A stretch of 34,133 nt of DNA from Gemmatimonadota bacterium (GTDB lineage: Bacteria; Gemmatimonadota; Gemmatimonadetes; Gemmatimonadales; GWC2-71-9), in contig QHUC01000005.1 of NCBI GenBank assembly GCA_003221045.1, positions 1 to 34,133 on the forward strand. The letters are read 5' to 3'. How positions within the stretch are numbered: the first letter of the stretch is position 1; every line of letters starts with the position of its first letter. Of this stretch, positions 15,128-24,179 are shown one piece after another. The position numbers and the translations under genes were made by a program. The notes under the pieces were generated by a model, which saw only the letters and a program-made list of their open reading frames with translations, was not told where the DNA came from and searched no databases.

Positions 15128-16624
15128 CTACTTCTTGCCCGCCAGCTCCCGGTGGAGCACGCTGTACTTGCGGCTGTAGCCGAAATAAATCCCGAGTCCG
15201 ATCACGAGCCACACCGCCAGCCGGATCCATGTATCGAGTGGAAGCGTGAGCATGAGACCAAGACAGGAGAGGATCCCGAGCAGCGGCACGAGCGGGACGA
15301 GGGGCACTCGGAACGGCCGCTCGAGATCCGGGCGCGTATGCCGCAGGATCCACACACCACCACAGACGAGGACGAACGCGAGGAGCGTGCCGATGTTGAC
15401 CCACGTTCCGAGGAGCTGCAGCGGCAGCAGACCGGTGGCGACGCACACCGCGATCCCGGTGTAGATCGTGGAGCGGTACGGCGTGCGGAAGCGAGGATGG
15501 ACCTCGCCGGCCCACCGCCCGAGCAGCCCGTCGCGCGACATCGAATAGAAGACGCGCGACTGGCCCAACAGCATGACGAGGATGACCGAGCCCATCCCCA
15601 ACACCGCGCCGACGTCGACCGACACCCGAATCCACCACGGGGCGCCGATCCGTTCCATCGCATAGGCCACGGGCGCCGGGAGGTTCAGATCGCGGTACGG
15701 CACCACCCCCACCAGGACGGCCGACATGACGACGTACAACACCGTGCAGACCACGAGCGACCCGAGGATGCCAATGGGCATATCGCGCTGGGGATTCTTC
15801 GACTCCTGTGCCGTGGTCGAAACGGAGTCGAAGCCGATATAGGCGAAGAACACGAGTCCCGCACCGCGCAACACACCCGACCATCCATACGTGCCCCAGT
15901 CGCCGGTGTTGGGTGGGATAAACGGGGTCCAGTTGGCTCGGTCGACGTGGACCAGACACACGAGTACGACGAGCAGCACGATGGCGACTTTGAGAATCAC
16001 GATGAGCGTGTTGACCCGCGCCGACTCCCGAATGCCGATCACCAGCACGGTGGACATCAGGATCACGATGCAGACCGCCGGGAGGTTCATGATCGCGCCG
16101 GTCAGGTTCAGCCCGGTATGCGCGCACCCGACGGCATGGGCGGCCACCTGGCCGCCCGTACACCATTGAGTCGGCGGGGCCGTGAGGCTCGCGGGGATGT
16201 GGATGCCGAACAGGCCCGTGAGAGAAACGAAGTGGCCCGACCAGCCGACGCCTACCGTGGCCGCGCCGGCAGCGTATTCCAGCACCAGGTCCCAGCCGAT
16301 GACCCAGGCCGCGAACTCGCCCATCGTGGCGTAGGCGTAGGTGTAGGCGCTCCCTGCCACTGGCACGGCGCTCGCCATCTCGGCGTAACAGAGCCCTGCG
16401 AACGCGCAGGTGACGCCGACGAGGATCATCGAGAGGGGCACCGCGGGGCCGGCGTACAGCGCCGCCACCTGCCCCGTGATCACGAAGATGCCGGCGCCGA
16501 TCACGGCGCCGATGCCGAGGGTGACGAGATTGAGCGGACCGAGGGCACGCGTGAGCGCGTGCTCGCCCGCTGCCCCGGCTTCGGCTCGAAGCGTGGCGAT
16601 CGGCTTCGTGGCGAAGAGGTTCAT
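15128..16624 (-). CDS. APC-family amino acid permease
   Basis: MNLFATKPIATLRAEAG...LGPLNLVTLGIGAVIGAGIFVITGQVA...; AGLVFFAYIGFDSVSTTAQESKNPQRDMPIGI; complete paralog of the 17541-18835 gene. Confidence 0.93.
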   Translation of the reverse strand: MNLFATKPIATLRAEAGAAGEHALTRALGPLNLVTLGIGAVIGAGIFVITGQVAALYAGPAVPLSMILVGVTCAFAGLCYAEMASAVPVAGSAYTYAYATMGEFAAWVIGWDLVLEYAAGAATVGVGWSGHFVSLTGLFGIHIPASLTAPPTQWCTGGQVAAHAVGCAHTGLNLTGAIMNLPAVCIVILMSTVLVIGIRESARVNTLIVILKVAIVLLVVLVCLVHVDRANWTPFIPPNTGDWGTYGWSGVLRGAGLVFFAYIGFDSVSTTAQESKNPQRDMPIGILGSLVVCTVLYVVMSAVLVGVVPYRDLNLPAPVAYAMERIGAPWWIRVSVDVGAVLGMGSVILVMLLGQSRVFYSMSRDGLLGRWAGEVHPRFRTPYRSTIYTGIAVCVATGLLPLQLLGTWVNIGTLLAFVLVCGGVWILRHTRPDLERPFRVPLVPLVPLLGILSCLGLMLTLPLDTWIRLAVWLVIGLGIYFGYSRKYSVLHRELAGKK

Positions 16625-17540: not shown

Positions 17541-18835
17541 TCAGAGTTTCTGCGCGAGCTTCGAGTGCCGCACGCCGTAGAGAAAGTATAGAAACATTCC
17601 CGCAATGAACCAGATGATCAGCCGTCGCCACGTGGTCCACGGCAGCGAGACCATGAGGTACGCGGCTGACAGGGCACCGAGTGGCGCCACGACAAAGACC
17701 GCCGGTGTCTTGAAGGCCCGCGGCAGGTTGGGCTCGCGCACCCGCAACACCATCACCCCGATCGACACGATTACGAACGCGAGCAGTGTACCGATCGAGA
17801 CCAGGTTCCCTGCTTCGCGGACGGTCAGCAGGGATGCCACGATGGCGACGACGATTCCTGTGACAATCGAAGTGATGTACGGGGTCTGGAACCTAGGGTG
17901 GACCTTGTTGACGAACTGCGGCAGCAGCCCGTCGCGCGCCATGGAGTAAAACACCCGGGATTGACCGAGCAACATCACGAGAATCACCGATGAGAGGCCC
18001 GCGATGGCGCCGAGCTTGATGAGAGACGCCATCCAGCCGAGGCCCGCGCGATCCGCCGCCACGGCGATCGGGTCGGGGACGTTCAAGTCCTTGTAGCTCA
18101 TGACGCCGGTCGCGATGCCCGATACGAGGATGTAGAGCACCGTGCAAATCAGCAGCGAGCCGATGATACCGATCGGCATGTCGCGTTGGGGGTTCTTCGC
18201 TTCTTGTGCGGCCGTGCTCACGGCATCGAACCCGATATACGCAAAGAACACCAGCCCAGCGCCCGCCATGACTCCGGTCCAGCCAAAGGAACCCCGATCA
18301 CCCGTGTTCGCGGGAATGAAGGGATGCCAATTGGCGGGGTTCACCGCGCGTGCCGCCGCCACGATGAAGAGGAGGACCACAGCCACCTTGATGAACACGA
18401 TGACGTTATTCACGTTCGCTGACTCTTTGATCCCGATCACGAGCAGCGTAGTCACGACCACCCGATCGCCACCGTAACCGCCCCGAGTGCGTACTCGAGG
18501 ACCAGGTCCCATCCGATGATCCAGGCGAAGAGCTCGCCCAGCGTGGCATAGCCGTACGTGTAGGCGCTCCCGGCCATCGGGACAAGCGAGGCGAACTCGG
18601 AGTAGCACAGCGCCGCGAAGATGGACGCGACGCCGGCGAGCACGAACGACAGCACCACGGCCGGACCGGAGTTCTGCGCTGCCACCGTTCCAGTCAGCAC
18701 GAAGATCCCGGTGCCGATGATCGCGCCGATGCCGAGCATCGTCAGGTTCAGCGCGCCGAGGGCGCGCTTCAAGCTGTGATCCGTGAGCGCCTCGGTCTGG
18801 AGATCGGTGACGCTCTTCCGTCGCAGCAGATTCAT
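17541..18835 (-). pseudogene. Second APC-family amino acid permease, internally deleted and frameshifted
   Basis: N-terminal part MNLLRRKSVTDLQTEALTDHSLKRALG...VLEYALGAVTVAIGWS* stops at 18452; remainder VVVTTLLVIGIKESANVNNVI...HSKLAQKL continues in another frame. About 60 aa present in the neighbouring paralog are missing. Confidence 0.85.
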
Positions 18836-21852: not shown

Positions 21853-23439
21853 ATGGCAAAGAGGCATGGGCCGCGCACCCCGGTCGTCCTGATCGTGCTC
21901 GACGGCTGGGGCTTCCGTCCCGGCCGCGAGGGCAACGCCATCGAGCTCGGGCGGACGCCCACCTGGCATCGCCTCTGGGCCCACGCGCCACGCACGCTGC
22001 TCAACGCATCCGGCCTAGAGGTCGGCCTCCCCGAGGGACAGATCGGTAACAGCGAAGTCGGCCACCTGAACCTGGGCGCGGGCCGCGGGGTGCCGCAGGA
22101 CATGGTGCGCATTTCCCAATCGATCGAGTCGGGCGAGTTCTTCCGCCTGCCCCCCCTCGTGGAGCTCTGCGAGACGGTGAAGCGACGGCACGGCACGCTG
22201 CACTTGATGGGACTGATCGGGACCGGCGGCGTGCACGCCCTCGACCAGCACCTCGTCGCCGCCGTGATGCTCGGCCACCGATACGAGCTGCCGGTCGCGA
22301 TTCATGCGTGGCTCGACGGTCGCGACACGCCGCCGCAATCCGGTCTCGCCTTCATGCAGGAGCTGGTCGAGGGGCTCGGGATTCGGGGCTCGGGGCTCGG
22401 AGGTGGCGGGGTCCGAACCCCGAGTCCCGAGCCCCGAGCCCCGGTCATCTCCACCGTCGTGGGCCGCTACTACGCCATGGACCGCGACAAACGCTGGGAG
22501 CGCACGAAGATCGCCTACGACGCGATGGTGCACGGCGTGGGTGAGCCCGCGCCCGACCCGGTAAACGCGATCCGGCGCGCCTACGAGGCCGGGGAGACCG
22601 ACGAGTTCGTGAAGCCCCGCGTGGTCACCGGAACGCCGCGCATCCGCTCGGGCGACGGAGTGTTCTGCTTCAATTTTCGCGCGGACCGCATGCGCCAGAT
22701 CGTGCGGGCACTCGCGGTCGAAGGATTCGACGCCTTCGACACCGGCACGCGGCCATCGATCGACCTGGTGACCATGACCCAGTACGACGAAACGTTCGCG
22801 TTTCCCATGGCCTTCGGGCCGATGGTGCTCTCGCAGATCGTGGCCCAGGTGCTTTCCGAACGGGGCAAGACGATGTTCCGGACGGCCGAAACGGAGAAGT
22901 ACGCCCACGTCACCTACTTCTTCAACGGCGGCCGCGAGACTCCGTTCCCGGGCGAGGAGCGCCTGTTGGTGCCGTCGCAAAAGGTCGCCACGTACGACTT
23001 GATGCCGGAGATGAGCGCGCCGGCGGTGACAGACGTATTGTGCAAGGCCATCGAAGCCGGGCATCACGATTTCATCCTGTGCAACTACGCGAACGGGGAC
23101 ATGGTCGGGCACTCGGGGGTACTAAGCGCGGCCGTGAAGGCCGTGGAGGCGGTGGACCAATGCCTCGACCGCGTGCTGCGGAGCGCCGAACAACGCGACG
23201 CCACGCTGCTCGTGACGGCGGACCATGGCAACTGCGAGCTGATGATCGACCCGACGACGGATGGGCCGCACACGGCACATACCACGAATCCGGTGCCGTT
23301 TGTGATCGTCGGAGACCGAGCACGCGGGCCGCTGCGCCACGGCGGGGCGCTGCGCGACGTCGGCCCCACCGTGCTTCGGATGCTCGACATCGAACCGCCC
23401 CCGGAGATGACGGGACGCGACTTGAGGGAGACGGACTAA
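21853..23439 (+). CDS. gpmI: 2,3-bisphosphoglycerate-independent phosphoglycerate mutase
   Basis: VVLIVLDGWGFR, GNSEVGHLNLGAGR, GRYYAMDRDKRWERTKIAYDAMVHG, TADHGNCE. Contains a repeat-encoded extra segment near aa 174-196. Confidence 0.96.
   Translation: MAKRHGPRTPVVLIVLDGWGFRPGREGNAIELGRTPTWHRLWAHAPRTLLNASGLEVGLPEGQIGNSEVGHLNLGAGRGVPQDMVRISQSIESGEFFRLPPLVELCETVKRRHGTLHLMGLIGTGGVHALDQHLVAAVMLGHRYELPVAIHAWLDGRDTPPQSGLAFMQELVEGLGIRGSGLGGGGVRTPSPEPRAPVISTVVGRYYAMDRDKRWERTKIAYDAMVHGVGEPAPDPVNAIRRAYEAGETDEFVKPRVVTGTPRIRSGDGVFCFNFRADRMRQIVRALAVEGFDAFDTGTRPSIDLVTMTQYDETFAFPMAFGPMVLSQIVAQVLSERGKTMFRTAETEKYAHVTYFFNGGRETPFPGEERLLVPSQKVATYDLMPEMSAPAVTDVLCKAIEAGHHDFILCNYANGDMVGHSGVLSAAVKAVEAVDQCLDRVLRSAEQRDATLLVTADHGNCELMIDPTTDGPHTAHTTNPVPFVIVGDRARGPLRHGGALRDVGPTVLRMLDIEPPPEMTGRDLRETD
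22371..22442 (+). repeat. Inverted heptad-repeat hairpin element inside gpmI
   Basis: Left arm GGGGCTC GGGATTC GGGGCTC GGGGCTC GG; right arm CCCCGAG TCCCGAG CCCCGAG CCCC; perfect 16-bp inverted match 22385-22400 / 22427-22442; inner CGGGGT-CCGA-ACCCCG hairpin. Confidence 0.93.
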
Positions 23440-24179
23440 TGCCAGAGGCGACGGAACGACGGAACGTTGGAACGGGGATGCGGCGGAGAGCAACGGTGCT
23501 CGGGATTGCACTACTTTCCGTCATTCCGTCGTTCCGTCGCCTTTCAGCTCAAGTGGGCCACGACCCCGGCCACTCACCCTACCGTGACATCCCGAAGGGT
23601 GCGGTGTGGGTGGCCACCTTCGGAGATTTGGGCGGCGGCCGGGGGAGCGTCGGCGTCGGTCCGTCCGACGGCATGACGGCCGGCCTCCGCTACGAGGTTC
23701 CTCTGGGCGCCATCGGGGCGTCCCTCGGCGTCGCGTATGCCCGGACCACGAGCTTCGTCATAGATGCGAGCACGACGACGGACTCCCTGTCGCGCAGGAG
23801 CGGTCCGTACGATGCCGGCGTGGTCCTCGTCGACGCCGGGCTCCAGCTTGCGCTCGCCGGGAGGAAGAGCTGGCGCGGACTGGCACCCTACATCGGGGGA
23901 GCGCTCGGCGTGGCGGTGGGACAGAGCATCGCCAAGGACTCGAGCGGCTACAAGTTTGGAACCAAGATCACTCTCGCGCCCAATGCGGGGTTCCGCTGGT
24001 ACCCGGCGCGGCGGCTGTCGCTGCGCGGCGACTTCCGCCTGGAGCTCTGGAAGCTCTCGTACCCCCTATCGTACAAGCAGCAGAATTTCCAGGGCAACCG
24101 CGTCCTCGACGTGAACGCGTCGCTGAGCGAGTGGACGGCACACCCGTGGGCGACGATCGGCATCGGATGGATTTTTTAG
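23439..24179 (+). CDS. Exported outer-membrane beta-barrel-like protein
   Basis: Signal peptide followed by glycine-rich amphipathic strands (LRYEVPLGAIGASLGVAYARTT..., APNAGFRWYPARRLSLRGDFRLELW...) ending in ...HPWATIGIGWIF; start overlaps gpmI stop (TAATG). Confidence 0.7.
   Translation: MPEATERRNVGTGMRRRATVLGIALLSVIPSFRRLSAQVGHDPGHSPYRDIPKGAVWVATFGDLGGGRGSVGVGPSDGMTAGLRYEVPLGAIGASLGVAYARTTSFVIDASTTTDSLSRRSGPYDAGVVLVDAGLQLALAGRKSWRGLAPYIGGALGVAVGQSIAKDSSGYKFGTKITLAPNAGFRWYPARRLSLRGDFRLELWKLSYPLSYKQQNFQGNRVLDVNASLSEWTAHPWATIGIGWIF
23446..23542 (+). repeat. Inverted 8-bp tandem-repeat element in the signal-peptide region of the beta-barrel gene
   Basis: CGACGGAA CGACGGAA CGTTGGAA (23449-23472) and TTCCGTCA TTCCGTCG TTCCGTCG (23516-23539); 19-bp perfect inverted match AGGCGACGGAACGACGGAA (23446-23464) / 23524-23542. 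Confidence 0.92.

Follow-up and report, generated by a model that had tools for sequence, protein, structure and literature searches.

The gpmI gene of a Gemmatimonadota MAG, an essential gene of sugar metabolism, contains, within its uninterrupted reading frame, a palindromic DNA element whose two arms are built from tandem 7-bp units. The element is not unique to gpmI, since dozens of heptad hairpins occur across the genus. On alignment with related proteins, the segment of GpmI that it encodes is an insertion with a net length of approximately 15 amino acids. We believe that it is probably one copy of a family of dispersed, non-autonomous palindromes with tandem arms, which would spread as whole hairpins, change by slippage and be tolerated in frame as near-neutral additions.

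The element was found in a stretch of 34,133 nucleotides (the window), and the identity of its host protein is supported by the NCBIfam model TIGR01307 (626 bits against a cut-off of 330.65) and by the PDB entry 5vpu_A (E 2.3e-139). The original prediction described four G-rich units followed by three inverted ones, and both arms are as described: the four left units occupy 22371-22398, and the three right units, extended by CCCC, end at 22442 (Table 1). Paired in phase, the arms are 31 nt each and 87% complementary, whereas the perfect inverted match within the stem, given previously as 16 bp, is in fact 17 bp long and lies out of phase (22384-22400/22427-22443). No inverted repeat in the window scores higher (19, compared with 10-14 in 20 Markov-1 random sequences), and the RNA fold of 22365-22450 reaches -64 kcal/mol (z = -5.25), a stability equalled by none of 200 shuffles. 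As had been claimed, the gpmI frame is continuous through the element, which encodes the peptide IRGSGLGGGGVRTPSPEPRAP. The loop may align with the codons of an ancestral YGGR turn, although this is suggestive only.

Table 1. Tandem-armed palindromes in the window and the gene that hosts the first of them.
Feature	Position	Strand	Remarks
gpmI, 2,3-bisphosphoglycerate-independent phosphoglycerate mutase, 528 aa, element host	21853..23439	+	ORF; TIGR01307 equivalog; PDB 5vpu_A
Heptad-armed palindromic element, class I (GGGRYTC), in frame	22371..22442	+	GpmI residues about 174-197
G-rich left arm GGGGCTC GGGATTC GGGGCTC GGGGCTC GGA	22371..22401	+	four-G-tract quadruplex motif, + strand
Loop GGTGGCGGGG between the arms of the gpmI element	22402..22411	+	10 nt
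C-rich right arm TCCGAA CCCCGAG TCCCGAG CCCCGAG CCCC	22412..22442	+	quadruplex motif, - strand
Second tandem-armed palindrome, period 8 (GACGGAAN units), just 3' of the gpmI stop codon	23446..23542	+	arms 23446-23472 and 23516-23542

A search of 61 genomes, among them the element's own, found GpmI in 52, and a total of 80 database loci was gathered. The distance from the LDGRD motif to the MDRDKRW motif is 62 amino acids in the window GpmI and 60-62 in its sisters G001, G002, G005, and G009, compared with 47 in G003, G004, G006, and G008 and about 44-52 in distant GpmI proteins. Within one genus, the site is therefore occupied in G000, G001, G002, G005, and G009 and vacant in G003, G004, G006, and G008; the element looks shortened in G007 of the same genus and collapsed in G024 of the same family (GAGGGGCTCGGGGATCCCC), and G028, from a different genus, shows a segment of heptads at this position. 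The element was absent from all distant GpmI proteins that were read, and the aligned stretch of the solved GpmI structures is about 14 residues shorter than that of the window GpmI. The insertion that had been claimed is thus borne out by close as well as distant GpmI proteins that lack the segment, and no close relative was found with a segment of the same length but devoid of heptads. The earlier figure of about 22 amino acids stands as the length of the heptad-encoded segment but not as the net insertion, which is 15 amino acids relative to element-free relatives, since the element takes the place of part of a helix end and turn.

The AF2 model of GpmI has a mean pLDDT of 91 and falls below 50 solely at residues 179-192 and at the N-terminus, so that residues 179-192 are predicted to form a disordered surface loop; when mapped onto this model, the segment falls in the low-confidence loop, which is rich in Gly, Pro, and Arg and sits between helix 164-177 and strand 198-204. 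The copy is probably near-neutral for the enzyme. The gpmI codons 3' of the element form two linked haplotypes among G000-G009 and G024, one ATCTCCACCGTCGT-like with the element or a remnant of it and one GTGTCGACCGTGGT-like without it. Given that filled and empty alleles differ in the following codons too, exchange of gpmI alleles between species may account for part of the pattern of presence and absence.

The original prediction proposed a search of the host genome, and the same kind of element was recovered, in frame, in other genes of both that genome and the genus. In the element's own genome it also separates a penicillin-binding-protein gene from an amidohydrolase gene (both named by eye), where it begins directly after the TAA and extends up to the ATG; in addition, there is an in-frame heptad array in a hydantoinase-B-like gene and a degenerate, in-frame hairpin in the mutL linker. 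Triple heptads were present in 18 of the 61 relatives searched. A stringent convergent double-arm pattern was found in 15 of 298 genomes of the phylum, the reversed control being zero in all but two genomes, and the divergent arm order was not found in any of 37 genomes. About 60 heptad and 20 octad loci were read. The 70 heptad clusters comprise 43 with a G-rich arm followed by a C-rich arm, 26 single-strand arrays or same-strand pairs and one triple, with no instance of the C-then-G arrangement; heptad hairpins are convergent, with the G-rich arm 5', without exception. Arms in these clusters mostly have 3-4 units, and the spacers GC, AC, GT, and AT make up 239 of the 277 in GGGRYTC arrays. 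An assembly artefact was rejected, as independent genomes have orthologous elements and the 5.3-Mb contig of G111 contains the hairpins too.

About a third of the copies are in frame within core genes, adding flexible loops with no visible disruption of the proteins. By codon-usage scoring trained on local genes, applied to pattern-sampled clusters from the window genus and G028, 22 of the 70 heptad clusters are inside one continuous coding frame; as orthologues were counted separately, these correspond to about 14 distinct genes. In G111, 11 of 25 hairpins are in frame inside genes. Hosts identified above the curated NCBIfam cut-offs are gpmI, mutL, engB, purL, ligD, dxr, and a heavy-metal P-type ATPase; dnaG, kgd, an Lhr-type helicase, and mtaB gave strong NCBIfam matches below cut-off with partial sequences, and dnaE, rsmB, and atpG were named by eye. 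In sugar-isomerase-like genes (L206, L215, L222, and L245), convergent heptad arms 60-90 nt apart flank the start codon and a Tat-like signal, one arm being in the 5' region and the other in coding sequence just past the signal peptide.

The architecture is shared by units of another period. The octad palindrome downstream of gpmI folds with -60.3 kcal/mol (z -6.3), and its GACGGAAN family is dispersed in G008 (24 forward and 26 reverse matches) and also present in G014. The octads of G008 mostly have three units per arm, with GGC/GCC at the outer borders and GGGGATG/CATCCCC at the inner ones, and in-frame octads occur in valS, tgt, atpG, and two hydrolase/peptidase genes of G008. A pair of octad arrays 1.07 kb apart on contig C76 of G008 was considered as an autonomous copy and rejected: the arrays lie in and at the start of a dipeptidyl-peptidase-like gene, and there is no transposase.

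Evidence on how such hairpins spread comes from G111, an order-level relative with a finished contig of 5,311,527 bp. Several loop types, for example, GGGAACTGCTCCCCCAC, are common to dispersed copies among its 25 hairpins, in either orientation and with varying unit number. No similarity was found between the flanks of these copies, and no target-site duplication longer than 2 nt. Since the loops are common but the flanks unrelated, whole hairpins were copied in this genome, each together with its loop and without its flanks. We infer that the copies of the window genus spread in the same manner. In our model, a family member would have approximately 3-4 G-rich 7-bp units in its 5' arm and the inverted units in its 3' arm, with a short loop between them. 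Complete hairpins would spread through the genome, and slippage would add or remove whole units and thereby alter arm length. Insertion within a gene would be tolerated at flexible surface turns, provided that the overall length leaves the frame intact, given that a stop-free 7-bp unit yields, by arithmetic, the same cyclic heptapeptide in every frame; the sites would be surface turns, as modelled for GpmI only. No transposase linked to the heptad hairpins was found.

The unit itself varies between species at the same site. In the mutL linker it is GGGRYTC in G002, G005, G006, and G009, GGGGTTA/CTA-like in G000 and G001, and GGTGTCN in G004, G007, G008, and G019, both arms being of the same class within each species; pairing of arms from the same species exceeded cross-species pairing (permutation p = 0.0004, uncorrected for relatedness). 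The class changes cut across clades, as the tree places G002, G006, and G004 in one clade and G001, G009, and G005 in another. Because the mutL loop type follows the class, allele exchange may be a simpler cause of these changes than rewriting in place. Genome-wide, among 37 genomes, GGTGTCN palindromes were found only in G004, G007, and G008, and GGGNAGC palindromes only in G000 and G001. A turn of engB (YihA/YsxC GTPase; L216, L350-L359) has in-frame hairpins of five sequence types in seven species: by eye, the units are GGGGCTC in G028, GGGGAGC-like in G000 and G020, GCGCGGT in G001, and GTGGTGC in G007, and G002 has a REP-like GTAGGGGCGCAGCATGCTGCGCCCCTAC palindrome that is near-identical in G004. 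The insertion is absent from this turn in G005, G008, G009, G019, and further outgroups.

A second reading, which we consider unlikely, is that a trans-acting process in Gemmatimonadota writes palindromes with a fixed period of 7-8 bp, a fixed arm length of about 3-4 units and a fixed polarity (the G/purine-rich arm 5') but a free choice of unit, each lineage having active classes of its own. Existing sites, the mutL linker among them, would then be rewritten in both arms with a current class. If true, this would be a mobile or self-templating repeat of a new kind and not a single repeat family.

Besides the lack of a target-site duplication and of a linked transposase, two observations tell against the spread of whole hairpins. 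Loops in the window genus are mostly not common between copies, and some arm pairs bracket apparent host sequence, such as the SW..P..xLF segment of mutL, for which the arm-free G010 may have a counterpart, or the start codon and Tat signal at L206, L222, and L245; growth arm by arm fits these two observations better than insertion of hairpins does. Such growth could occur in situ and without mobility, if a chance short inverted repeat (TCGGG...CCCGA) grew through slippage and through template switching, with one arm being copied into the other by snap-back. The heptad period and variable unit number agree with this, as does the fixed polarity, which would follow if folding back were confined to G-rich nascent strands; so do the joint class switches of the mutL arms and the apparent host sequence between them, although the p value for the former ignores relatedness. 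However, the classes are properties of whole genomes and not random per site, and the dispersed copies of G111 have loops in common. Furthermore, the variable letters of class I arms match each other no better than those of shuffled arms (p = 0.91, 43 pairs), and the duplex test of the gpmI arms gave p = 0.13, so we rejected arm-to-arm templating within class I. We therefore regard growth in situ as unlikely, and continue to favour the spread of whole hairpins.

It is very improbable that the elements are selected nucleic-acid structures, regulating their host genes as RNA hairpins, DNA cruciforms or G-quadruplexes. The gpmI hairpin is strong, each arm has four G-tracts as a sequence motif (on opposite strands), and related heptads form quadruplexes in vitro (PMC4692102). 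Yet the same gene is filled in only some species of one genus, the sites are in the middle of unrelated housekeeping genes, the arms do not covary within a class, and the GACGGAAN octads have the same architecture without a quadruplex motif; Rehm et al., 2015 likewise found no regulatory role (PMC4692102). We see as little reason to invoke a REPIN-like element mobilised by a RAYT transposase of the IS200/IS605 type, even though Y1 transposase matches occur in 26 of the 61 relatives, including G000 (four) and G028 (two), and the hairpin form and the intergenic copies adjacent to stop codons are reminiscent of REPs. The heptad-bearing genomes G002 and G007 (93-94% complete) have no Y1 match, the flanks of the transposase genes in G004, G005, and G024 have CCCCGGGG-type palindromes of their own, and GGGRYTC, GGTGTC or GACGGAA arrays were found in none of the 15 RAYT neighbourhoods read, two of which have a lone GGGNAGC pair. 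Moreover, no GTAG/CGTC terminal tag was found in the outer flanks of 86 heptad arms. RAYT-type Y1 genes at L391, L392, and L398 are near ACCCCGGGGCATGGCCCCGGGGT-type palindromes, a separate REP-like family. Least probable of all is an adaptive linker, in which the Gly/Pro/Arg-rich loop itself is selected: it is kept in five species and occurs at the same place in G028, but neither its peptide sequence nor its length nor its presence is constrained, close relatives have the site empty or collapsed, and the loop is disordered in the AF2 prediction.

Heptad repeats are familiar from cyanobacterial structural RNA genes, where degenerate complementary STRR heptads form the two stem sides of hairpins in P6b of the tRNA-Leu intron and in RNase P RNA, whereas the Gemmatimonadota elements are in protein genes. 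Among known elements, the nearest is the G-rich heptad repeat of Xanthomonas, which also forms convergent pairs and was described together with that of Nostoc (GGGNATC/GGGGAYT; Rehm et al., 2015; PMC4692102). Both groups of repeats are built of 7-bp units in tandem, in which a G-tract is constant and other letters vary (GGGRYTC here), with at least two units and a preference for about four, and both show genome-wide dispersal and convergent inverted pairs. Those of Gemmatimonadota differ in phylum, in the unit and in having several unrelated unit classes, including an octad, with one architecture. They also lack a strong intergenic bias: Xanthomonas genomes have 70-75 convergent pairs each, 89-93% intergenic and 7-11% intragenic (PMC4692102), in contrast to the in-frame fractions reported above for the 70 clusters and for G111, which are pattern-sampled and count orthologues separately. 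The function and origin of the bacterial heptads were left open by Rehm et al., 2015 (PMC4692102).

The original prediction likened the element to Rickettsia palindromic elements (RPEs; Ogata 2000, 2002, reviewed in PMC10969869) while assigning it a different architecture. The likeness holds for behaviour, as both are selfish-looking palindromic DNA in frame in unrelated functional genes to which they add peptide; membership we retain as a comparison only, as RPEs are about 150 bp long with family-specific sequence and peptide, and the elements here have tandem heptad or octad arms and variable loops. The architecture is different from that of RPEs but not without precedent, given the published Xanthomonas pairs. 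REPs and REPINs are also short hairpins and some are intragenic, including REPs inside repair genes at about the same site across related species (PMC3733652), but the present elements have tandem arms and no RAYT link; a MITE would be expected to leave the target-site duplication that the G111 copies lack. We found nothing relevant on heptad palindromes in Gemmatimonadota among open-licence papers. What is new is that tandem-unit arms, a single architecture common to several unit classes and a large proportion of in-frame copies occur together in Gemmatimonadota, which become a second bacterial group, after Rickettsia with its RPEs, whose core proteins have repeatedly gained loops from palindromic DNA. 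As close species offer recent copies, vacant sites and same-site class switches, the mechanism of birth and spread is directly testable in this phylum. Elsewhere in the window, the segments 16238-16550 and 18455-18767 are 71-78% identical at a spacing of 2217 bp and are probably tandem paralogous genes.
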